From the IMG/VR virus record IMGVR_UViG_3300046095_000113, positions 1 to 34,441 of that record: a DNA stretch of 34,441 nucleotides; one strand, 5' to 3'. This document shows, one piece after another, positions 11,591 through 32,189 of this stretch (position 1 is the first letter of the stretch; each line of letters opens with the position of its first letter). The notes beneath the pieces are model-generated. The model was not told the origin of the DNA, made no database searches, and saw nothing but the letters and a program-made list of their open reading frames with translations. Made by a program: the position numbers and the translations under genes. Source of the DNA: a virus.

Positions 11591-11784
11591 TATTCCTCCT
11601 TCATCATTTGTTCTAAATCTTCGTGCATCTCATCTATGCGAGATGCAAGTTCTGTTTCAAAGTTAGTGTGTTGATTTAATAGCCAGAGTAGTTCCTTAAA
11701 GAAACCTGCAACTGACATTGTTATATTAAAAAAGAATACTATTGATAACATTCCAAAATGAATAGGACGTACCGGAAGATTCAT
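11590..11784 (-). CDS. Small single-pass membrane protein, 64 aa
   Basis: A hydrophobic segment at residues ~10-30 (HFGMLSIVFFFNITMSVAGF) is followed by a charged amphipathic helix (LASRIDEMHEDLEQMMKEE). This is one membrane segment with a cytoplasmic or periplasmic helix, as in some holins and spanin-like proteins, but it lies among head genes rather than lysis genes. GGAGGG lies 5-6 nt before the ATG at 11784. A 9-bp hairpin encloses both the ribosome site and the start codon, so translation is probably controlled. The last residues overlap the next gene by one base. Confidence 0.6.
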   Translation of the reverse strand: MNLPVRPIHFGMLSIVFFFNITMSVAGFFKELLWLLNQHTNFETELASRIDEMHEDLEQMMKEE

Positions 11785-11801
11785 CTGTACCCTCCGGTAC
11801 G
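11768..11801 (-). promoter_or_regulatory. RNA hairpin enclosing the ribosome site and start of the membrane-protein gene
   Basis: CGTACCGGA (11793-11801 read on the minus strand) pairs perfectly with TCCGGTACG (11768-11776), leaving a 16-nt loop. The loop holds the start codon (11782-11784) and half of the GGAGGG ribosome site; the other half is in the stem. A 9-bp perfect stem around a start codon would be expected to reduce initiation unless opened by upstream ribosomes, a protein or temperature. Confidence 0.55.
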
Positions 11802-11816
11802 CGCTATTGAAAACAA

Positions 11817-11948
11817 TTAAGCCTTCTTTCCTTTGCGACCTGCTGGAGCGTATCCAAAACTTACATCACCACCTGCTGGCTTGGAGTGATCCATTTTGCC
11901 TTCGACTGCCTTACTTTCAGGTGCCGGTGCGTGTGATCCTTTATTCAT
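11817..11948 (-). CDS. Tiny basic Gly/Ala/Pro-rich protein, 43 aa
   Basis: This 43-residue protein begins MNKGSHAPAPESKAVEGK and ends SFGYAPAGRKGKKA. It is preceded by a near-perfect AGGAGGT ribosome site six bases before the ATG at 11948, so it is very probably expressed at a high level. It sits between the portal gene and the membrane-protein gene. No domain; the composition suggests a disordered basic peptide. Confidence 0.65.
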   Translation of the reverse strand: MNKGSHAPAPESKAVEGKMDHSKPAGGDVSFGYAPAGRKGKKA

Positions 11949-11962
11949 ATTCCACCTCCTAG

Positions 11963-13705
11963 TTATGCTGCGCCACCAATGGAGGCTAGTAGTTGTGCTA
12001 TATCGGGACGAGTTTGTGGGCCAGCAGCAGGGGTTGCACCTTGAGAGGGAGGAACCTGCGAGGCAGCGGTGGGAACCATACCTGCTGCTGGAACTTGCTC
12101 TGCTCCCATAGGCGGCATCTCTGGTGCTGGCGGTGGAGCAAATGCTTTTTCTACTACAGTTTCTAACTGTTGACCTTTTTGGCGGCCTGCAATAACTGCT
12201 GCAATACGAGTGATAGCCTCTGTAGGATCTTGTCCCGCTGCTGCCATCTGTGGAATAGATTGTGCATACTGTGCAACTGCTACTCGCAGTGAGTCACGCA
12301 TCTCTTCAATATCAATTCTTTGTTCTTCTTGGGTTACGTTCATATCAATTGGTAGTTCACGACGAGCATAGTCGCGGGAAACTAACTTATCGCTACGCAT
12401 TTGTAGTAATGCGATAACTGCGCGGTTAGGATCCATACCAGACATAATGCCGTAGCGAACATCAATAGCGTAATCCTTGTTGATGTCTCTTGATGGTATG
12501 TATTTTAAGATGTATGGAGTTCCATCATCAATACCACGAATAGTTTTTTGCATTGAACCAAAAACTACTTCATCTACTTCTAGGCAGAGTCCAAGCAATT
12601 CAGTAAACAACCGAGCGAATTGGGCTTGAGCAGATTTAATCTGCGTATCAAAGCCTTCTTGTAGCGCCTGGACTCCGCGACCTGTAACGACAGATGCGTT
12701 GATCTGCCCTGAACGTGTCTCTGGATAACGAGCGCCAAGACGAAGTTCGCGCTCAAGTACACCAGACTCAGCAAATACACCCTGCGGAAGTTCCAATGGA
12801 ACTCTACGGATTAACTGTGGGCTTGCTGAACGAAGAATAGCGTCAGGTCCAAGTGCCAACTCCTGCACATCTTGTGGGATAGCAATCGGTGCTTGAATAG
12901 ATTTTTCTGCTGCTTGAATTTGTAGGACTGCAAATCTAGCGCGAGCAAGTTGTACTGCTAGTACATCATCAAACTGTCCACGAGCCTCACCATCAATAGA
13001 GAAGCGTTGTGCCACACGAGCCATACATTTACCAAATTGGTTTGGTGTATTGGAAAGAACGGTATTGTTACGACTTGGAAGAAAGATCATATCCTGATCT
13101 TTGTCGTGGTAACGAACCATATCAATATAGGTTGCGCTTTGTCCGTACTGTTGGCGTGGAAGAATCTCTTTTGCAAATTCTGGATACATAGCAGCCAAAG
13201 TCTCAGGGTCCATCTGGACTACCTGAGTTAAAGATACGGTACGACCAAAGCGATCCATCTCTGGATAAACACCAAATGGATTAAGCAAACGGATCTTTGG
13301 TGTATTTGTTTCATAATCTACTTCAACAATACCAGGTAACATACCGTAGGTATTAAACCAATCAGCACCGGAGTACATTTGGATCTGTAGTTCTGAGGAA
13401 CTAGAGTAGTAGTTTACAATCCGAGTGCGGGTATCTGCACTCTTACGAGCAGCATCAGAGACCATATTAGATGCAGAACAGTTGAATGATGGCAAAGGTG
13501 CCATCGCTTCTGCTAGATCACGAGCAGCAACATCAATAAAGTTTGCGACTAAAGGTTTTGGATAATCCTCAGAAAACATCGCTGGATAGACTTTACCAAT
13601 ATCGCCTTGACGTACCGATAGTACATCCCGCATCCTTTGGTCACGAGCAGCGTAGCGCGATTGAAGACGCGATACCTTTGCTGCTACTTCTTTTGCTGTT
13701 AACAA
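11963..13705 (-). CDS. Portal protein, 580 aa
   Basis: The portal dodecamer forms the DNA entry channel at one capsid vertex. The length, the position two genes after terL, and the sequence layout fit a podovirus-type portal: an N-terminal helical region (KVSRLQSRYAARDQRMRDVL), then YPKPLVANFIDVAARDLAEA, a central RYPETRSGQINASVVTGRGV segment that looks like the stem/tunnel region, and a Pro/Ala/Gln-rich disordered C-terminus (PPPAPEMPPMGAEQVPAAG). The start appears to be TTG at 13705, with AAGGA six bases upstream and no better in-frame ATG nearby. Confidence 0.82.
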   Translation of the reverse strand: MLTAKEVAAKVSRLQSRYAARDQRMRDVLSVRQGDIGKVYPAMFSEDYPKPLVANFIDVAARDLAEAMAPLPSFNCSASNMVSDAARKSADTRTRIVNYYSSSSELQIQMYSGADWFNTYGMLPGIVEVDYETNTPKIRLLNPFGVYPEMDRFGRTVSLTQVVQMDPETLAAMYPEFAKEILPRQQYGQSATYIDMVRYHDKDQDMIFLPSRNNTVLSNTPNQFGKCMARVAQRFSIDGEARGQFDDVLAVQLARARFAVLQIQAAEKSIQAPIAIPQDVQELALGPDAILRSASPQLIRRVPLELPQGVFAESGVLERELRLGARYPETRSGQINASVVTGRGVQALQEGFDTQIKSAQAQFARLFTELLGLCLEVDEVVFGSMQKTIRGIDDGTPYILKYIPSRDINKDYAIDVRYGIMSGMDPNRAVIALLQMRSDKLVSRDYARRELPIDMNVTQEEQRIDIEEMRDSLRVAVAQYAQSIPQMAAAGQDPTEAITRIAAVIAGRQKGQQLETVVEKAFAPPPAPEMPPMGAEQVPAAGMVPTAASQVPPSQGATPAAGPQTRPDIAQLLASIGGAA

Positions 13706-16869: not shown

Positions 16870-16898
16870 TTGACTCTTGCCAGATATGAGCGGATAAT
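16870..16898 (+). promoter_or_regulatory. Sigma-70-like promoter of the plus-strand cassette
   Basis: TTGACT (16870-16875) and GATAAT (16893-16898) are separated by exactly 17 bp and each match the consensus at five of six positions. Transcription would start near 16905, about 40 bp ahead of the first cassette gene. The inverted copy of the 11-bp repeat occupies the spacer, an ideal place for a repressor. This is the best promoter seen in the window and probably works early with host polymerase. Confidence 0.75.
16876..16886 (-). repeat. 11-bp repeat TATCTGGCAAG, copy 2 (inverted, in the promoter spacer)
   Basis: The plus strand reads CTTGCCAGATA, the exact reverse complement of copy 1. It lies entirely between the -35 and -10 hexamers of the cassette promoter, so anything that binds it would block polymerase. 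Confidence 0.55.
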
Positions 16899-16908
16899 AA
16901 TTATTAGA

Positions 16909-16926
16909 GCGGGAGATCCCTCCCGC
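16909..16926 (+). repeat. Leader hairpin of the first cassette gene
   Basis: GCGGGA and TCCCGC form a 6-bp stem around GATCCC in the presumed 5' leader, followed by the AAGGGGTAA ribosome site. It is the first of a series of GCGGG-type stem structures that precede genes of this cassette. Confidence 0.5.
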
Positions 16927-16946
16927 CATATTGAAGGGGTAAAGAT

Positions 16947-17309: not shown

Positions 17310-17315
17310 GTAATA

Positions 17316-17361
17316 GCGCGGGGCTAGTGAAGCCTAGAGGGGAGCGATACCTCTCCCGCGC
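17316..17361 (+). repeat. Structured intergenic element 1 (three-way-junction-like)
   Basis: An outer stem GCGCGGG (17316-17322) / CCCGCGC (17355-17361) encloses two smaller stems: CTAG/CTAG and AGAGG/CCTCT. The same plan of an outer CGCGGG/CCCGCG stem with two inner hairpins recurs in the next intergenic gap with different inner sequence, which argues for a selected fold. Confidence 0.5.
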
Positions 17362-17363
17362 AC

Positions 17364-17374
17364 TATCTGGCAAG
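17364..17374 (+). repeat. 11-bp repeat TATCTGGCAAG, copy 3
   Basis: This is a third exact copy, 25 bp before the start of the next small gene and just after structured element 1. Its position inside the transcribed region suggests a second operator or an RNA-level signal. Confidence 0.5.
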
Positions 17375-17399
17375 TAGCCGGATAATTAAGGGGTAACTA

Positions 17400-17567
17400 A
17401 TGCCTAAGTTCACGGTTTACGCGACAGTAACTTATGACCTCCAGACTGAGATCGAAGCCGACTCACTAGAGGAGGCGCAAGAGATAGCAGATAAGGATCT
17501 CATAACTTTAGATTTTGAGCAATTCAATGGCGATTTTGATTTAGGGGAGGTAGTAGAGGTCCAATAG
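17400..17567 (+). CDS. Small hypothetical protein, 55 aa
   Basis: The sequence starts MPKFTVYATVTYDLQTEIEA and contains a strand-strand-helix pattern (DSLEEAQEIADKD), then an acidic C-terminus. AAGGGGTAA six bases before the ATG supports the start. The SLEEAQEIA motif resembles small phage and plasmid proteins of the DpnD/PcfM-like type, but the match is loose. Function unknown. Confidence 0.7.
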   Translation: MPKFTVYATVTYDLQTEIEADSLEEAQEIADKDLITLDFEQFNGDFDLGEVVEVQ

Positions 17568-17574
17568 TAATAAG

Positions 17575-17618
17575 CGCGGGAGAGCAGACTCTACCGGAGG
17601 CGCAACGCCTCCCCCGCG
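17575..17618 (+). repeat. Structured intergenic element 2 (three-way-junction-like)
   Basis: The outer stem CGCGGG (17575-17580) / CCCGCG (17613-17618) encloses AGAG/CTCT and a perfect 7-bp hairpin GGAGGCG-CAA-CGCCTCC (17596-17612). It has the same architecture as element 1, with changed inner stems. Confidence 0.55.
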
Positions 17619-17677
17619 TACTATCTCCCGCTATCGGAGTGGGAGAGGGTAAGAGCAAGAGAAGGAGAGGGCGAGAG

Positions 17678-17845
17678 ATGATAATAGAGAAGGCTAGACA
17701 TAGTGGCGCGATAGTAATTTCCGACATAGTGGGAGGGTATCTATTGACCCGCGTTTACTACGGGCATACTAGGCGAGAAGCTAGGCTCCTATTCTTAGCA
17801 GGAGAGGGCAAGATTAGGGAGAGGGGAGGGGCTAGTAATGAATAG
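17678..17845 (+). CDS. Small hypothetical protein, 55 aa
   Basis: The start is placed at the ATG at 17678 (MIIEKARHSGAIVISDIVGG), because GGAGAGGGCGAGAG directly precedes it and the upstream extension would be encoded by that purine-rich ribosome-site region. The protein has GYLLTRVYYGHTRREARLLF, a pattern I associate with short early proteins of actinophages. The C-terminus is charged. Function unknown. Confidence 0.65.
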   Translation: MIIEKARHSGAIVISDIVGGYLLTRVYYGHTRREARLLFLAGEGKIRERGGASNE

Positions 17846-17972
17846 ATCTCTCACCCTTCTAGTTCAATTCTCCTTATTAGGGGTAATAATTCCCATAATC
17901 GTATCCCTAGCGCGTCAATTCCATCGAGAGGGGATGGCGAGAGTTAGAGCGGGAGAGGGGAGGGGCGAGTAA
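17838..17972 (+). CDS. Tiny single-pass membrane protein, 44 aa
   Basis: A hydrophobic segment at residues ~5-25 (LTLLVQFSLLGVIIPIIVSL) is followed by a basic, Gly/Arg/Glu tail. The ATG overlaps the end of the upstream gene and is preceded by GGGGAGGGGC. It could be an early membrane-acting peptide; such peptides in other phages inhibit host functions or block superinfection, but nothing here shows which. Confidence 0.55.
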   Translation: MNRSLTLLVQFSLLGVIIPIIVSLARQFHREGMARVRAGEGRGE

Positions 17973-18052
17973 TGGATATCTATGATATGGATTTTGATGA
18001 TCTTATGGATCTAATTGGAGATGGAGATCCTGAGCAGGTAATTTTCGGATAA
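17972..18052 (+). CDS. Tiny acidic protein, 26 aa
   Basis: This 26-residue frame is rich in Asp (MDIYDMDFDDLMDLIGDGD). Its ATG overlaps the stop of the membrane-peptide gene (TAATG) and it is preceded by GAGGGGCGAG. The tight coupling and ribosome site support expression. An Asp-rich peptide in an early cassette could mimic DNA, but at this size that is only a thought. Confidence 0.45.
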   Translation: MDIYDMDFDDLMDLIGDGDPEQVIFG

Positions 18053-18059
18053 GCCTACA

Positions 18060-18115
18060 CGCTCCTTCTCCGGTACTTGCTTATCGGAGGAGGGGAGCGT
18101 AGCCTTAACGCTACG
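18060..18115 (+). repeat. Structured intergenic element 3
   Basis: CGCTCC...CTCCG (18060-18072) pairs with CGGAG...GGAGCG (18085-18099) across a small internal loop. CGTAGC (18098-18103) then pairs with GCTACG (18110-18115). The junction sequence GAGCGTAGCCTTA (18095-18107) is repeated exactly in element 5 at 19229-19241. Confidence 0.5.
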
Positions 18116-18161
18116 ATCCTCTTCCAGATAGGGAGAGGGCGATAACCATAAGGGGTAAACT

Positions 18162-18767
18162 ATGAATAGCACTATGCAGGAGAGTAAGAAGGCTACCGAT
18201 ACTATTAGCGTGAAGGCTACGGTATTAAGGGAAGTATTAGAAGGAGCGGGATTACACGCGAGTAAGGATAGTAGCCTTCCCACGCTTAACGCAGTATCTA
18301 TTGAAGGATTAGAAGGTAAGTTGATCGTACGCGCTACCGATAGGTATCGCTTAATTAAGGGAGAAGTAATAGGAGAAGGAGATCTATCTTCTAGCCTTAT
18401 CCCACTATTAGATATTAAGCGTGTAATTACCTTAATTAAGGAGGAGAAGTGGGAGCGGGAAGTTCAACTATCTCGCGTAGGAGATCTTCTAAGTGTTACC
18501 TATAACTCTAATACGCTTACGATCCTCTTATGCTCCGGTACCTTCCCGCCTAGCGATCACCTATTCCCTGATACCAGTAATCCTTCACCTATCGGAGAAG
18601 TAATGCTTAATCCAACTCTACTGGCAGATTATGGCAAGATAGCGTGGAAGAAGAGTGGAATTAAGTTGATCTTCTCTGGAATAGGTAAGGCTATTACCGT
18701 AGAATTACCGGAGAATAAGAATATTAAGTGGAGCGCATTACTTATGCCTATGAGAATATCCTCTTAG
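18162..18767 (+). CDS. Short DNA sliding-clamp-like protein (beta-clamp family), 201 aa
   Basis: Sliding clamps encircle DNA and tether polymerase. Residues ~14-135 match the plan of a beta-clamp domain: VLREVLEGAGLHASKDSSLP, then TLNAVSIEG, EGKLIVRATDRYRL and a LDIKRVITLIKEE helix. Residues ~145-201 look like the C-terminal domain, with MLNPTLLADYGKIAW and the hallmark ending SALLMPMRI. Bacterial DnaN has three such domains (~370 aa); this has room for two, so it might form a trimer as PCNA does, or be a decoy or partner for the host clamp. No polymerase gene was seen in the window. AAGGGG lies six bases before the ATG. Confidence 0.75.
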   Translation: MNSTMQESKKATDTISVKATVLREVLEGAGLHASKDSSLPTLNAVSIEGLEGKLIVRATDRYRLIKGEVIGEGDLSSSLIPLLDIKRVITLIKEEKWEREVQLSRVGDLLSVTYNSNTLTILLCSGTFPPSDHLFPDTSNPSPIGEVMLNPTLLADYGKIAWKKSGIKLIFSGIGKAITVELPENKNIKWSALLMPMRISS

Positions 18768-18775
18768 CGCGGGAA

Positions 18776-18812
18776 TATCCTTCACTAGGGAGATCTAGTG
18801 GAGGGTATTCTC
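18776..18812 (+). repeat. Structured intergenic element 4 (long hairpin)
   Basis: GGGAATATCCTTCACTAG folds back on CTAGTGGAGGGTATTCTC with a 6-nt loop and only a few mismatches, giving one long stem after the clamp gene. It is preceded by AGCGCGGG, a sequence shared with elements 1 and 2, and followed by AAGGGG before the next gene. Confidence 0.5.
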
Positions 18813-18850
18813 CTTCTAATAGTTAGATGGAGAATAAATAAGGGGTAATG

Positions 18851-19186
18851 ATGGAAGTAATCCATAATCAGATAAGTAATGACGCTCACCGTAAGATCAC
18901 CGATACCTATACTCTAGGAGCCTACCGCGTGAAGGTGTACACCTATCACGATAAGAATAAGAAGGCTTACTGGAGCATAATTAGTGAGTGTACCGTCGAG
19001 CCTAGTGGCACTACGGGGATCTATTTCGAGAAGTCTAGGCCACAAGTAGATCTTAATAAACTTATCAATAGTGCTATCGCTAGTAGATATAACTATCAGC
19101 ACCTAATCTCTCACCATAGTAAGGCTCTATATATGGTTAGAGAATTGATAGATCAACTACTGGAGAAGGAGAAGGTAAGCGCATAA
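18851..19186 (+). CDS. Hypothetical protein, 111 aa
   Basis: The start is set at the second ATG of ATGATGG because the AAGGGG ribosome site would be only 2 nt from the first. The N-terminal half is beta-like (LGAYRVKVYTYHDKNKKAYW); the C-terminal half is helical (HSKALYMVRELIDQLLEKEK). It lies between two structured intergenic elements, next to the clamp gene. No recognised domain. Confidence 0.7.
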   Translation: MEVIHNQISNDAHRKITDTYTLGAYRVKVYTYHDKNKKAYWSIISECTVEPSGTTGIYFEKSRPQVDLNKLINSAIASRYNYQHLISHHSKALYMVRELIDQLLEKEKVSA

Positions 19187-19198
19187 GATTACACGCTA

Positions 19199-19241
19199 GG
19201 GCTAGGGTAGTTGATTATCCTAGCCTTAGAGCGTAGCCTTA
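19199..19241 (+). repeat. Structured intergenic element 5
   Basis: CGCTAGGGCTAGG pairs imperfectly with CCTAGCCTTAGAGCG around an 11-12-nt loop. GAGCGTAGCCTTA (19229-19241) follows, an exact 13-nt repeat of the junction in element 3. AAGGGGTA then precedes the next start. Confidence 0.5.
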
Positions 19242-19296
19242 TGGTTACGGCTCACTCTCAAAGAGGGAGAGGGCGAGATCAGAGTAAGGGGTACAT

Positions 19297-19613: not shown

Positions 19614-19804
19614 TGAGTGAGCAACAATTCGGCTTGATCGTAGTGATTGAGCGCGGGGAGAAGTGGAGTAGCGTATCCATATTCGACCCGCTAGATGAAG
19701 CGTTAGATAAGTTACCGATTGCTACCGGAGAGGGTTCGCATTGGCGAACTGCTTTAGGAGAGGCGTTAAGTAAGATCGAATTACCGGAGAAGGAGGGCGA
19801 GTAA
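19613..19804 (+). CDS. Small hypothetical protein, 63 aa
   Basis: The ATG at 19613 overlaps the upstream TAA, which fixes the start; a longer in-frame extension upstream would run inside the zinc-ribbon gene. The sequence MSEQQFGLIVVIERGEKWSS then VSIFDPLDEALDKLPIATGE suggests a beta-hairpin plus helix. It ends KIELPEKEGE and its stop overlaps the next start. Unknown function. Confidence 0.65.
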   Translation: MSEQQFGLIVVIERGEKWSSVSIFDPLDEALDKLPIATGEGSHWRTALGEALSKIELPEKEGE

Positions 19805-20271: not shown

Positions 20272-20464
20272 AGTTATAGGAGAAGATAATCAACCACTCT
20301 GGGGAGGGCTAAACCCTGCTGAGGCGATAGAAGTATTTGCCTATAACCGGCAGGCTAAGATAGTAGTAACTGCGTGGTCTGATGACCACCTAGAGCCACC
20401 TAGTAACACTATTGACCTGACTCATATAGTTCGGCAGGCGATAGCACAAGGTAGAGGTAGATGA
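20231..20464 (+). CDS. Small hypothetical protein, 77 aa
   Basis: The frame starts MRQVLIPPATLQYEVIGEDN behind GGCGAGGAGTA, the purine-rich ribosome site typical of this cassette. Beta strands (KIVVTAWSDD) and a C-terminal helix (IVRQAIAQG) are likely. Its stop overlaps the ATG of the transglycosylase gene. Family not recognised. Confidence 0.65.
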   Translation: MRQVLIPPATLQYEVIGEDNQPLWGGLNPAEAIEVFAYNRQAKIVVTAWSDDHLEPPSNTIDLTHIVRQAIAQGRGR

Positions 20465-20892
20465 GTTATCAGCGAAGGCTACTGTTGGCAGGAGTGCTGA
20501 CGGTAGCCTTAACTGTTGCGTTAATTCCCCACGCTACTCAACCGGAGAAGGAGAGGGCGATCCCTGCTCCTGCAAAGATTGTGAAAGAATCCAACAAGGC
20601 TACTATGAAGGAGAAGAAGGCTAATGAGAGAACTGCCAAGTTATTTGCGAGTGCTGGATGGGGGTGGCGAGGGCGAGAGTGGGTTTGCCTTAAATCCCTT
20701 TGGACCAGTGAGAGCAGGTTTGACCACAAAGCAGATAACCCAAGATCAACTGCTTTCGGAATCGCTCAACGACTTAGAGAGAAGGATAGACGACCTGAGA
20801 TTCAGATTCTTCACGGTCTTAGATACATTGAACACAGATACGGATCTCCTTGCGTTGCGAGATCTTTCTTTTCTAAACATAGATGGTACTGA
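20461..20892 (+). CDS. Secreted lytic transglycosylase-like protein, 143 aa
   Basis: Residues 6-24 are a signal peptide or membrane anchor (RRLLLAGVLTVALTVALIP), followed by a Lys/Glu-rich linker. Residues ~72-143 match the SLT/goose-lysozyme-like fold used by many actinobacterial and phage muralytic proteins: EWVCLKSLWTSESRFD with a candidate catalytic E84, then ADNPRSTAFGIAQ, and a HGLRYIEHRYGSPC...WY ending. It would cut peptidoglycan glycan strands, either in lysis or in remodelling during infection. It lies at the end of the early-looking cassette, apart from the M15 endolysin. A second frame overlaps its 3' half. Confidence 0.75.
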   Translation: MSYQRRLLLAGVLTVALTVALIPHATQPEKERAIPAPAKIVKESNKATMKEKKANERTAKLFASAGWGWRGREWVCLKSLWTSESRFDHKADNPRSTAFGIAQRLREKDRRPEIQILHGLRYIEHRYGSPCVARSFFSKHRWY

Positions 20893-20954: not shown

Positions 20955-20990
20955 AAGGCTCCGTTTGCTACCCCTTTCGGAGCCTTTTTT
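20955..20990 (+). terminator. Bidirectional rho-independent terminator
   Basis: AGGCTCCG (20956-20963) and CGGAGCCT (20978-20985) form a perfect 8-bp stem followed by six T on the plus strand. On the minus strand the stem is followed by TTCATTTTA, a weaker T-rich tail. It separates the convergent plus-strand cassette and minus-strand replication operon. Confidence 0.85.
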
Positions 20991-21165: not shown

Positions 21166-21547
21166 CTAACTGCACTCCTGCCTCTAATGGCAGGAAGCCC
21201 ACCATCTTATCTATCTTAGATTTGTTAGCGAAATCTGTAGTTACTGGTAGGTATTGTGTACTCCAAGGAATCTCTATATCTGGAGTGAGATGAAAAGCCC
21301 AGACACCTTCAGGTGTGGAGTTGATATACCAAGGTGCTAACTGCCTTGCTCCGGCTGCAAGTATTAAATTATCGTACTTAGATTTTTCAATCAGCAAGGT
21401 AGGGTAATGAGTACGCCTAGATTTTAATTCAATATACATTTTGAACTGTTCAGTAGTGCAATCGAAAGTATCGTAAGTGCCTTCGGACTTGACAAGATCT
21501 GGATAGTGACTATCTTTGAGATACTGGAATAGATCTGCCTCTTTCAT
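21152..21547 (-). CDS. Putative PD-(D/E)XK-fold nuclease, 131 aa
   Basis: The start is the ATG at 21547, which overlaps the stop of the sigma-factor gene (TAATG). Residues 26-42 contain TYDTFDCTTEQFKMYIELK, with Asp followed by a strand carrying E40-L-K42, the core of PD-(D/E)XK nucleases. After this come the strand PTLLIEKSKYDNLI and GVWAFHLT. It could be a Holliday-junction, repair or host-DNA-degrading nuclease. The family assignment is by motif only. Confidence 0.5.
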   Translation of the reverse strand: MKEADLFQYLKDSHYPDLVKSEGTYDTFDCTTEQFKMYIELKSRRTHYPTLLIEKSKYDNLILAAGARQLAPWYINSTPEGVWAFHLTPDIEIPWSTQYLPVTTDFANKSKIDKMVGFLPLEAGVQLDASV

Positions 21548-22185
21548 TATTGCCAAGGGTTATCTCCGCCTAGTATTCTTTGAAGTGAGCGCAACGCGCT
21601 CTCGCAACGGCGATCTGCTGTTGAGGTAGAACATTCAAACCGTTCAGCAACCTTCTCTAAAGTTAAGTTCTCGTGATACCTAGCCGTCAATAAAGTCTTA
21701 TCTTTATCTTCCATCATCTCAAAGCCACGCTTGATATCAATCAGCATAGCAAGTAATCCTCTACCTTCTGCTGGTGCAGAAGTGTGCCTTGGAGTACCAT
21801 CATCTACTAACTGTTGTGCTTGTTCTAAGATCGCACCATCAAAGATATGACTGAGGATATGTGGCAACATTTGTGCCAGGGTAGAAGTTTCATAGAAGTA
21901 TTCATCACCAGATACATAGCCAGACTTTGCTGCCTTCTCCTTGCGAGCATAACGCTCGCATACTCTCTTTAATTGCCACCATAACCGGCGTTCATTATGC
22001 TTACGAATCTCTGGATCTGGTTCTGAAGTAGCATCTACTATCTGCTGATAGCGAGAAGTGGCCCAAGCCCAAGCCTCTTGCATCATATCATCGCGTTCAG
22101 TCCACTTATTATATCTACGATAGACAGTTAGAACTACACCGTAGATAGCCTCTGATACCCCTTCTGGAAAGGGTTTATCAGTCAC
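21547..22185 (-). CDS. Sigma-70-family (ECF-like) RNA polymerase sigma factor, 212 aa
   Basis: Residues ~30-85 resemble sigma region 2 (ERDDMMQEAWAWATSRYQQI then RRLWWQLKRVCERYARKEK). Residues ~152-205 are a clear region 4 helix-turn-helix (LLTARYHENLTLEKVAERF, CSTSTADRRCESALRSLQRI). A ~60-residue linker separates them, as in ECF factors. It probably redirects host RNA polymerase to phage late promoters, such as that of terL. The start is GTG at 22185, overlapping the end of the upstream gene. Confidence 0.78.
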   Translation of the reverse strand: MTDKPFPEGVSEAIYGVVLTVYRRYNKWTERDDMMQEAWAWATSRYQQIVDATSEPDPEIRKHNERRLWWQLKRVCERYARKEKAAKSGYVSGDEYFYETSTLAQMLPHILSHIFDGAILEQAQQLVDDGTPRHTSAPAEGRGLLAMLIDIKRGFEMMEDKDKTLLTARYHENLTLEKVAERFECSTSTADRRCESALRSLQRILGGDNPWQ

Positions 22186-28145: not shown

Positions 28146-28360
28146 TTTTTCTCCAGTAGTAATCGGTAGATGTCATCAACTCTGTTCTCTAATCTTTCTA
28201 ATCGGATGGTGTTTTTAGTAACGGAGTCCTTCATACTTGACCCGCCATTGGGACGAAGTTCCATTAGGAAAGATTTTACCATCCATCGAATTCCCATACT
28301 GACAGTAGCCAGTACACCTAGAAGTCCAGATACAAACATCACCCAGTCGGAGGCACTCAT
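28142..28360 (-). CDS. Membrane protein with coiled-coil tail, 72 aa (holin candidate)
   Basis: One N-terminal membrane segment (WVMFVSGLLGVLATVSMGIR, residues ~6-25) is followed by a charged heptad-like helix (NTIRLERLENRVDDIYRLLL). The gene directly precedes the endolysin and its ATG overlaps the stop of the tail gene (TGATG). This arrangement fits a class of short one-segment holins in actinophages. A spanin-like or anchoring role cannot be excluded. Confidence 0.65.
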   Translation of the reverse strand: MSASDWVMFVSGLLGVLATVSMGIRWMVKSFLMELRPNGGSSMKDSVTKNTIRLERLENRVDDIYRLLLEKK

Positions 28361-30273
28361 CAGACTGTTCTAACTGTTACTAATAAGATTCCGCCAAATC
28401 CAGTAAACCTTTTATCGGTAGGGGTTTTGTTTACAAAGTCCATTTCTTCAATCAATCCAATGTAAACTTCTCCGGTACGAAAGTCCTCAACTCTGACTGT
28501 ATTGCCTTGGTTTTCCAAGGTTTCTATGTTATATAATCTGTCGTAGGCTCGTCCGTCATAACCAACTTCATTACCAAAGGCATCTGATTCGTGGTCATAG
28601 CAGGCTAAAGGATATTGAATTAAACGCTGGCGTGGTATGCCAGGTAATGATTTAAGTTGGTAGCCAGTAAACAAAGGTCCTAATAAAGCATTGGTACTCG
28701 ATCTGTTTACTGTAAACTTAAATGCTAAATACTGTTGAGCACCGGCAGGGTATGGAATACCAATCTCTTCTACGCCAGTACCTTGTGCAAAGGTTCCAAT
28801 ATTGTATTCTATTCCAAAACTATCTATTGAGTTGATCTGGAAAGCACCGTTTGCGGTATCAATCTTTGGTAACAGCAACTTGAATATCTTATTTTCTAAT
28901 GTGTTATATCTGATGTAACCAGTTTGTAGATAACCACTAGCCACTAATGATGTAGTTGATTCAGCCCAAACATCATTACCTGTAGTAAATGCTATACGAT
29001 CTGAGTTGCCAAAGAAAGCAATCTGATTAGCAGTAGCACTAATACCGGAGGCAATTAAATCCCAAGCATAAGGAAATAGTATTGCGTTACCGATAACTGT
29101 GGATAAGTCTATGCGAAGCAACCCTGCTTCGCCATCTACTGTGGTAGTTACATAGGCAAAGCGATCAGCAAAAGATACGTCATTACAGGCAGCATCGCTG
29201 TAAAGTAATGGACCGTAGGAGATATCTCCATCTGCTGATACAACACCAACCCGTACTCCCTTGCTGGTAGCAAGGACTGCATAGGTTCCAAGGTAAACAT
29301 CAAAGCCATTGATCCGCTCACCTGTTGGTAAATCAACAGTGACGGTAGGTACATTTAACTCTGGGAATCCAAGTGAGTTAGGTGTAGTTGGATCTAAAGT
29401 AATCTTAAATATGGAACTTGAGGTTCCATTAGGATCATATCCTGCTACATAGATAGCAGCCGGTCCCTCAGCGATAGCAGACCAGATCCACGCTGAGTTC
29501 GGATGGGTATATAAAGCAGTAGGTAATGCAGCAGAAGCCGTAGCGTTAGCATTAAGTTCATATAAAACATTTTCCTTAGCCAACAGTAACCGTTGTTTAA
29601 CATAACGGATAGTGGCTCTAGTTGTAGAAGGAGTGTTGTAGATCTCAGAGTCTGCTGGAGATGCTCCTACGGAGCCTCTGTGTACCTTTGTAGCGTTAAT
29701 AAAGTAAAAGTTAGATCCATCAGTGGTAAGTGAATAGATGGTTGAAGGAGTACCGGCTTGGCTAATAGTCGAAGATGATCCAGCAGAAGTAATCTTTTTT
29801 AATGCGGTACCATCTGTAATGTAGATGCAATCATTGGTACCATCATTAACACCAAGTAACTGACCTGCCACAGCACCATCATAAAATATTGCTGTATCAT
29901 TAAGAAGAGTTGCCTGACCTTTGGTCCATATATCTAAACCTTTAGACTCAGTAAACTGAAATCGCAAAGATTCATCTTGAGCAGGCTCAAAATACTTAAT
30001 CCCCGCTCCTAAGTGGAACGAGGATTGGGATCTAAACCACCAGCCAGTGAGCGACTGCTCACCCGCTTCTCGCGTTTGGTCAAACTGTTGCTTTCGATAC
30101 TGAGCAGTTACTCTACGATAAGGAGTCTCATCACTGGTACTCATAAAGAATGGTTGAGTATTGATTGCTACATCGTAGCCAAAGTCAGAAGGTTGATATG
30201 AAACAGATGCCGCAGGGTTTGATAATGGAAAAGCAATATTAAAATATTCTCCACCCTCAGTAATATCAGCCAT
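28360..30273 (-). CDS. Tail protein with beta-propeller-like repeats (nozzle or stopper candidate), 637 aa
   Basis: The protein is almost entirely beta, with many short strands and recurrent YI-DGT, VYVAGYDPNG and YVTTTVDGEAGLLRIDL-type turns, as in a beta-propeller. The C-terminal ~110 residues (YPLACYDHESDAFGNEVGYD, then VRVEDFRTGEVYIGLIEEMD) form a separate beta domain ending GGILLVTVRTV. It follows the adaptor and fibre genes, so a short-tail nozzle (gp12/TubB-like) or receptor-binding role is likely. AGGAG precedes the ATG. The family is inferred from fold pattern, not a diagnostic motif. Confidence 0.65.
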   Translation of the reverse strand: MADITEGGEYFNIAFPLSNPAASVSYQPSDFGYDVAINTQPFFMSTSDETPYRRVTAQYRKQQFDQTREAGEQSLTGWWFRSQSSFHLGAGIKYFEPAQDESLRFQFTESKGLDIWTKGQATLLNDTAIFYDGAVAGQLLGVNDGTNDCIYITDGTALKKITSAGSSSTISQAGTPSTIYSLTTDGSNFYFINATKVHRGSVGASPADSEIYNTPSTTRATIRYVKQRLLLAKENVLYELNANATASAALPTALYTHPNSAWIWSAIAEGPAAIYVAGYDPNGTSSSIFKITLDPTTPNSLGFPELNVPTVTVDLPTGERINGFDVYLGTYAVLATSKGVRVGVVSADGDISYGPLLYSDAACNDVSFADRFAYVTTTVDGEAGLLRIDLSTVIGNAILFPYAWDLIASGISATANQIAFFGNSDRIAFTTGNDVWAESTTSLVASGYLQTGYIRYNTLENKIFKLLLPKIDTANGAFQINSIDSFGIEYNIGTFAQGTGVEEIGIPYPAGAQQYLAFKFTVNRSSTNALLGPLFTGYQLKSLPGIPRQRLIQYPLACYDHESDAFGNEVGYDGRAYDRLYNIETLENQGNTVRVEDFRTGEVYIGLIEEMDFVNKTPTDKRFTGFGGILLVTVRTV

Positions 30274-31292: not shown

Positions 31293-32189
31293 CTACTTTG
31301 TATAGTGAAGACGGATTGGGTATTTGTCTTGTAACTTTAATGCTTCCTCGTTCAAACGATTTTGGTAAACCGCATAGATATAACGAGATGATGATGTACC
31401 AGCAGTTGAAGGGATCTTGCTATCTTGAGAATCTGCTTCCGCAGAGGTAAGATTGATACGACCTGAATCAATATATGAAAGCAACTTATAGGCTGCGCCT
31501 AGAGTAATAACATCTCTACAGGTTTCAGGTAATCCTGAAACATCTGCAAAATCATCAGTAGATGAATCTAAAGTAGTAGGTGTGCTGGTGTAGTAAACCT
31601 GCACTGTACGTCCTGGCTGGATATTTTCATAGATATTTACAGTATTTGTACTGTTAAAGGTAGAGATATTAGCCATCGGATCTGCTCGCCATTTGTTAAC
31701 TGGTAGCCACTCTTGGCTAGAACCTGTGGTTTGCCAAGAGATATAAAGGATTGACTCTAAATCATCAGGCAACGGATAGGTAGTTTGTGCTGCGTTAAAG
31801 GTAAAGATGGCAGATGAGACTGCCCAAAGTTTAGGATAGACACTGTTGATAGTGTCATTGATAGCCTGCTTGACCATCATTCTAGGGAAGGTAGGACTTA
31901 AAGTAATCTGTGCATACTGAGCGTGTGGTGCAGGTGTGGAGTTTTGGAAGCCACGACCAAAACCTGGAGCAGCGTTTAATGTGTTGTTTGTCTTGACAAA
32001 GTTGTCAATCCAGATGAGTTCATCATCAATCTCAATAATACCCTTTGCTAAGTTAGATGAAGAGCCAACCTGAATAGCGGTATCAGTGGTGGTGATAGCA
32101 GCGTTTAGATAAGTAATTCGATCCTGACGCAGAGTGTAGCCTGCTAGGTTTGATCGTACCTCATCTATCATATCCGATAGTGTTGCCAT
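31293..32189 (-). CDS. Tail adaptor / head-tail connector-like protein, 298 aa
   Basis: The start MATLSDMIDEVRSNLAGYTL is followed by TDTAIQVGSSSNLAKGIIEI and DELIWIDNF, then a helical region (MMVKQAINDTINSVYPKLWA) and a conserved-looking PLPDDLESILYISWQ segment. This is the layout of tail tubular A-like adaptor proteins of short-tailed phages that bind under the portal. The C-terminus is helical (YQNRLNEEALKLQDKYP). The role is inferred from pattern and position next to the fibre and propeller genes. Confidence 0.6.
   Translation of the reverse strand: MATLSDMIDEVRSNLAGYTLRQDRITYLNAAITTTDTAIQVGSSSNLAKGIIEIDDELIWIDNFVKTNNTLNAAPGFGRGFQNSTPAPHAQYAQITLSPTFPRMMVKQAINDTINSVYPKLWAVSSAIFTFNAAQTTYPLPDDLESILYISWQTTGSSQEWLPVNKWRADPMANISTFNSTNTVNIYENIQPGRTVQVYYTSTPTTLDSSTDDFADVSGLPETCRDVITLGAAYKLLSYIDSGRINLTSAEADSQDSKIPSTAGTSSSRYIYAVYQNRLNEEALKLQDKYPIRLHYTK

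Follow-up and report, generated by a model that had tools for sequence, protein, structure and literature searches.

Structured intercistronic elements as candidate expression cassettes for exchangeable genes in an uncultured phage

Accessory phage genes turn over quickly, and how an acquired gene comes to be properly expressed is rarely visible. The question arises at a plus-strand cassette of small genes at 16.9-20.9 kb, with minus-strand blocks on both sides, in the IMG/VR virus record IMGVR_UViG_3300046095_000113 from an uncultured phage. The window analysed here comprises positions 1 to 34,441 of that record (34,441 bases, 43% GC). An initial annotation had read five structured gaps between the cassette genes either as a system for processing or stabilising mRNA or for controlling expression gene by gene, or as the scar of modular gene insertion. 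Our analysis supports this interpretation in part: there is support for expression control as well as for modular insertion, and the two are compatible, being two sides of one thing. We favour, with a probability of about 0.6, the reading that the elements are composite intercistronic expression cassettes that make genes exchangeable.

The cassette, its relatives and its structured gaps

The nearest matches of the phage terminase are Streptomyces phage terminases and a Caudovirales record (42-45% identity). Within the cassette, a 201-aa protein has weak sliding-clamp similarity, with Pfam DNA_pol3_beta_2 just under the cut-off and PHROG matches to processivity-factor and RusA-annotated families, and a 112-aa protein (18848-19186) belongs to a family without a Pfam or PHROG match. 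The latter family is 51-95% conserved in many uncultured phages (relatives L003-L024), where it adjoins elements, and is absent from INPHARED as judged by tblastn. A nucleotide search with the cassette and tblastn with two cassette proteins likewise gave no match in INPHARED, leaving no cultured relative as a source of annotation, and a genome-contig search with the conserved 112-aa protein, meant for host assignment, returned no relative. No Rfam covariance model matched the window at the gathering score, and a tRNA search found nothing. Elsewhere on the minus strand, the proteins at 28360-30273 and 31293-32189 fall into PHROG families of unknown function (E 2e-238 and 1.5e-112).

Relatives were collected by scans with the clamp-like protein and the 112-aa protein, which yielded L003 and L004 (94%) and L005 (88%) as close relatives and, at 51-60%, over a dozen distant ones. 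A scan with the ribosome-site pattern ACCTTGGAAGGGGTWA gave 88 stretches; many are unrelated, but a subset shows gene junctions of this kind. Because many unrelated, hairpin-free contigs also matched, the ribosome-site motif alone was rejected as a diagnostic.

Stem structures are present in all five gaps, as the initial annotation had claimed, with z-scores against dinucleotide shuffles of -2.7 for element 1 and -3.2 to -4.9 for elements 2-5. In a stability scan of the whole contig, comprising 983 plus-strand segments of 70 nt, those at 19181, 17571, 18061 and 18761, which are elements 5, 2, 3 and 4, ranked 1, 2, 3 and 5, respectively. All features of the units lie on the plus strand. Folding of element 1 gave a large hairpin (17316-17361), with an outer GCGCGGG stem and two inner hairpins, and a leader hairpin (17364-17384), which is followed by the ribosome site AAGGGGTA (17388-17395). 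The large and leader hairpins predicted by folding lie at 17574-17619 and 17620-17650 in element 2 and at 18773-18810 and 18809-18833 in element 4; the ribosome site is of the GGAGAGGGCGA type in element 2 (17664-17677) and AAGGGGTA in element 4 (18840-18847). The CGCGGG/CCCGCG outer stem described as common to elements 1 and 2, around two differing inner hairpins, was recovered by folding. Elements 3 and 5, whose large hairpins (18055-18102 and 19189-19236) were defined by folding and by alignment with orthologues, indeed share the exact 13-mer GAGCGTAGCCTTA (18095 and 19229; expected 0.00).

The ribosome site AAGGGGTA, said to end four of the elements, does follow elements 1, 3, 4 and 5. It occurs 7 times in the contig against 0.9 expected, the other copies being at 16934 and, twice, on the minus strand. 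The sequence AGCGCGGG, by which the elements were said to be commonly preceded, was found at three of the five, namely elements 1, 2 and 4 (17315, 17573 and 18766), and not at elements 3 and 5; moreover, it is part of the element rather than preceding it. It also occurs once within an ORF, at 19650.

Two other hairpins were noted in the window. A strong one on the minus strand (11750-11850; z about -8) follows a structural gene with no AAGGGGTA nearby, and G003 has a similar one at 12503. The other, of 16 pairs (20475-20510), lies in the start of ORF 20461-20892 and contains GTAGCCTTAA like the elements; the L003 hairpin near the equivalent place is unlike it.

Conservation of the fold

The proposal that fold rather than sequence is kept could be examined in the relatives. 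When elements 3 and 5 were aligned with their orthologues, six of the fourteen pairs of the large hairpin were changed on both sides, 100% of the cells were paired and no pair was broken, and the covariation score of this set was reached by none of 500 shuffles. The second and third hairpins of the same elements showed only pair-keeping changes. In the distant family A1 (16 sequences), three pairs were changed on both sides (13 two-sided cells) and 99.7% of the cells were paired, again with 0 of 500 shuffles reaching the score; slid controls gave 28-53% pairing. An inner stem of element 2 is GAG/CTC in the window and GGG/CCC in L003. Covariation and similar elements in relatives were thus both found, the former showing that the fold is kept and the sequence is not, and the initial interpretation was not refuted. 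When a covariance model was built from elements 3 and 5, it recovered its own members and matched distant type B elements weakly (E 6e-4 to 0.05); it was dropped as evidence because reverse-strand hits on the same palindromes score equally well.

Only Watson-Crick pairs were allowed in the stem search, which disfavoured G-T and A-C oppositions to the same degree. G-T nevertheless exceeded A-C in the stems by 11:2 in the window and by 80:30 in the relatives, which are not independent of one another. This bias suggests a coding-strand RNA rather than a DNA palindrome, pointing to hairpins that would act as sense-strand RNA. It is therefore very improbable that the elements are DNA-level palindromes, i.e., protein-binding operators or recombination sites whose RNA has no role, even though they are junctions of gene exchange and the ESAS of Cluster K phages have been proposed as DNA-binding sites (PMC3203893). 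Moreover, stems are replaced wholesale between elements without a conserved palindrome sequence, which is unsuited to a sequence-recognising protein.

The stems are 14-20 pairs long and lie between genes, with the fold kept and the sequence free, as would be expected of sites at which RNase III or a similar enzyme cuts a polycistronic message, as in T7 early RNA, the promoters being incidental. This explanation is best suited to elements 1, 2 and 4, which have no promoter, and there it overlaps with the favoured reading. However, it leaves unexplained both the exact 17-nt promoter spacing and the placement of the leaders relative to the -10 region that are described below, and we consider it rather unlikely, if a serious contender.

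Promoter motifs, leader hairpins and overlapping folds

Elements 3 and 5 share TTGAYTATC, with TTGCTTATC in the window's own element 3, and TAGCCT lies 17 nt after the -35 hexamer, within the shared 13-mer. In all fetched loci together, 43 TTGA(C/T) sites stand upstream of a ribosome site; 21 of them have TAnnnT at spacer 17, and no other spacer from 8 to 26 has it more than twice. With one representative per family, the families being partly related and not fully independent, spacer 17 was found in 8 of 10 and spacer 18 in one; in 2000 shuffles the count at spacer 17 never exceeded 2. These statistics suggest that the 13-mer is probably a promoter -10 region, and in elements 3 and 5 it is probably best read as a -10 region together with a hairpin arm. 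TTGAC-17-TAnnnT, with a spacer of 17-18 nt, is the normal actinobacterial sigma70-type promoter. Most of the element families match this motif. In addition, the minus strand at 21547-22185 encodes a sigma-factor-like protein (Sigma70_r4 and PHROG RNA polymerase sigma factor), which might read promoter classes beyond those recognised here.

The TTGA(C/T)-17-TAnnnT signal in elements 3 and 5 goes beyond the initial annotation, as does a sixth unit at the cassette opening (16870-16941), where promoter, leader hairpin and AAGGGGTA occur in the same order. This unit 0 consists of a promoter predicted from its motif, TTGACT-17-GATAAT (16870-16898), which opens the cassette, a leader hairpin GCGGGAGATCCCTCCCGC found by folding (16909-16926) and the ribosome site AAGGGGTA (16934-16941) before the first cassette gene. 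At the orthologous position, L003 has TTGAAC-17-TACCCT and L005 has TTGACA-16-TACACT, and the promoter and hairpin sequences both differ in these two relatives. The predicted promoter of element 3 is TTGCTT-17-TAGCCT (18077-18105), whose degenerate -35 is TTGACT in L003, L005 and L026; a second hairpin, CGTAGC-CTTAAC-GCTACG (18098-18115), can form in place of the large hairpin's outer stem, and a leader hairpin at the predicted 5' end (18117-18139) is followed by AAGGGGTA (18150-18157). Element 5 has the predicted promoter TTGATT-17-TAGCCT (19211-19239), a second hairpin CGTAGC-CTTATG-GTTACG (19232-19249), a leader hairpin at the predicted 5' end (19251-19273) and AAGGGGTA (19286-19293). On these motifs, the predicted promoters would be active at their predicted start sites.

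No recognisable promoter was found in elements 1, 2 and 4 or in the type B relatives, and the promoter is therefore not a constant part of the element. ACTATCT was considered as the -10 of elements 1 and 2 and type B and was rejected, as type B relatives have GACTACC with a co-changed partner strand. In one type A sub-family (the first site of L048 and its kin), the hairpin is kept and the -10 is lost. The register of hairpin and promoter also varies, the loop being at TTGA in element 3 and just before the -10 in the L048 family. Since the register differs between families, hairpin and promoter are separate constraints that have been superimposed.

We found no U-tract in or after the elements, the longest T-run being 2, and a terminator scan found none of them. 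In contrast, a canonical U-tract terminator at the cassette end (20955-20990) is conserved in G001 and G003. Ordinary intrinsic terminators were therefore rejected. Terminators without a U-tract have been proposed in actinobacteria, and the large hairpins could be partial terminators of this kind with graded read-through, transcription being restarted by promoters where these are present. The strong hairpins directly after stop codons agree with this, as do the promoters that overlap some hairpins, which would be expected where transcription units meet. However, the phage has conserved canonical U-tract terminators at the ends of its transcription units, whereas no element has a T-run above 2, and efficient termination at the promoterless elements 1, 2 and 4 and type B would silence the downstream genes. 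Partial termination is thus an unlikely explanation.

The position of the leader is also constrained. Pairing in the predicted transcript sets in 6-11 nt downstream of the -10 in all 19 of 19 cases, and the ribosome site follows the hairpin; the leaders are better folded than shuffles (mean z -2.5, n=14). In elements 3 and 5 the leader hairpin has a conserved SD-like tract, GGGAGAGGG, as its 3' arm. This tract, and the strong ribosome site that ends nearly every element with a leader hairpin just before it, would fit translational control, in which ribosome loading is set, or each start is insulated from upstream ribosomes, by the leader hairpins and purine tracts. However, folding places AAGGGGTA outside strong stems, so that it is not sequestered, making translational control improbable.

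In the type A families examined by inspection, one segment belongs to two hairpins, forming the outer 3' arm of the large one and the loop or 5' arm of the one that follows. The overlapping segment is GTAGCCTTA in elements 3 and 5, and AGCTAAGCA, TACCTAG and AACCTAT form leader loops elsewhere. Only read-through RNA can form the large hairpin, and the mutually exclusive folds may be a switch, a pseudoknot or a by-product. One possibility, which we put forward tentatively while leaning against it, is that the -10 segment takes part in both hairpins, as 3' arm of the large one and as loop or 5' arm of its successor, so that the start site of the polymerase picks the fold. Each gene would then have its own message with a 5' hairpin, and read-through RNA would be folded or cut differently. 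If true, such an arrangement would insulate the genes, and a large group of uncultured phages would have in the cassette a general socket for plugging in genes.

Gene exchange at the elements and comparison with known systems

The suggestion that the elements mark exchangeable modules is borne out by gene exchange directly seen at the element edge in relatives. Behind element 5, the window, L003 and L005 each have an ORF unrelated to the other two. The 80 nt that precede the ATG show an identity of 0.90, against 0.28 for the 80 nt that follow it, which places the break of ORF replacement directly 3' of the ribosome site. The ORFs behind element 4 also differ among these three, and there an ungapped comparison understates the upstream identity owing to a 2-nt shift. 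The homologue of element 1 in L005 stands behind a different ORF. In family B2, from distant phages, three ORF families occur in 13 loci, with an identity of 0.96 before and 0.31 after the ATG, and a fourth ORF family is found in L086 with a slightly different spacer. In family B1 and at the second A1 site, the same gene is always downstream. The elements can be, and need not be, exchange points.

Cassette genes also often end in (E/K)VSA*, in DNA GGTGAGYGCRTAATG, which joins the stop, the ribosome site and the next start. Junctions of this type (19170-19186; L005:7990-8013; L012, L014 and others) represent a second, hairpin-free repeated gene junction.

In the expression-cassette reading that we favour, the large hairpin of each element stands directly behind the stop codon of the upstream gene and is followed by the leader hairpin and a strong ribosome site. 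In elements 3 and 5 a host-type promoter (TTGAC-17-TAnnnT) would be overlaid on the hairpin, and the cassette opening would have a free-standing promoter with the same arrangement of leader and ribosome site. RNA reading through from upstream would carry the large hairpin, which we infer to act by processing, end protection or attenuation. The hairpins would most likely protect or define mRNA ends, a 5' stem-loop shielding the downstream message and the hairpin serving as the 3' end or processing site of the upstream message. With its RNA protected or processed in this way, each gene would be expressed fairly independently of its neighbours, and such independence would make the junction a socket: the element is retained, and the ORF behind it is replaced from a point between the ribosome site and the start codon onwards. 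The break at the start codon behind a self-contained cassette, with fold, promoter spacing and leader position kept despite unlike sequences, offers a testable rule for plug-in gene acquisition and would allow the promoters and transcript starts of uncultured phages to be predicted by sequence alone.

Among known systems, the closest are the PeSLs of T4, the SAS/ESAS of Cluster K and the RNase III sites of T7. This combination of features was not met in a shallow search of the literature, in which the PeSL was compared through PMC4503421. As summarised in that source, the PeSL (promoter-early stem-loop) of T4-type phages consists of an early promoter and a stem-loop that is a transcription terminator, lies among small fast-changing genes and is linked to gene shuffling (Arbiol 2010, Comeau 2014, via PMC4503421). 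Compared with the PeSL as described there, only elements 3 and 5 couple a promoter motif to a stem-loop, and the shared modular gene shuffling takes the form of ORF replacement at the ATG. The same description indicates several differences: here the promoter lies within the hairpin arms, some elements are promoterless, the stem-loops have no U-tract, and the unit also includes a leader hairpin and a ribosome site. In addition, the PeSL is found in T4-type myoviruses with T4 early promoters, whereas the present elements occur in a 34-40 kb non-T4 phage with TTGAC-17-TAnnnT.

In Cluster K mycobacteriophages, SAS repeats lie upstream of a subset of small non-structural genes and are linked to the ribosome site, with inverted repeats (ESAS, 17-bp, consensus) upstream in about half (PMC3203893). 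Departures of the ESAS from the consensus do not support mRNA pairing, and the authors argued against an mRNA hairpin (PMC3203893). The present elements are similarly repeated, ribosome-site-linked units before small genes; however, their arms differ between elements and covary, with pairing kept. The 13-bp SAS GGGATAGGAGCCC, a motif placed close to start codons, is absent from the cassette sequence, where the ribosome-site motif is AAGGGGTA.

Bacterial mRNA is stabilised by 5'-terminal stem-loops (Emory et al. 1992, cited in PMC7509114 and PMC3997798) and by 3' hairpins (review PMC7509114). The predicted element transcripts would likewise bear a 5'-terminal stem-loop; relative to the work as cited there, the starts here are predicted, and different phages repeatedly have this arrangement as a gene junction. 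The long intercistronic stems in a co-directional gene string appear similar to those of T7, in which RNase III sites lie between the early genes, except that here promoters overlap some stems. Finally, phage morons are extra genes that arrive with their own expression signals. The genes of the present cassette also have their own expression signals, but here the signals stay and the genes change.
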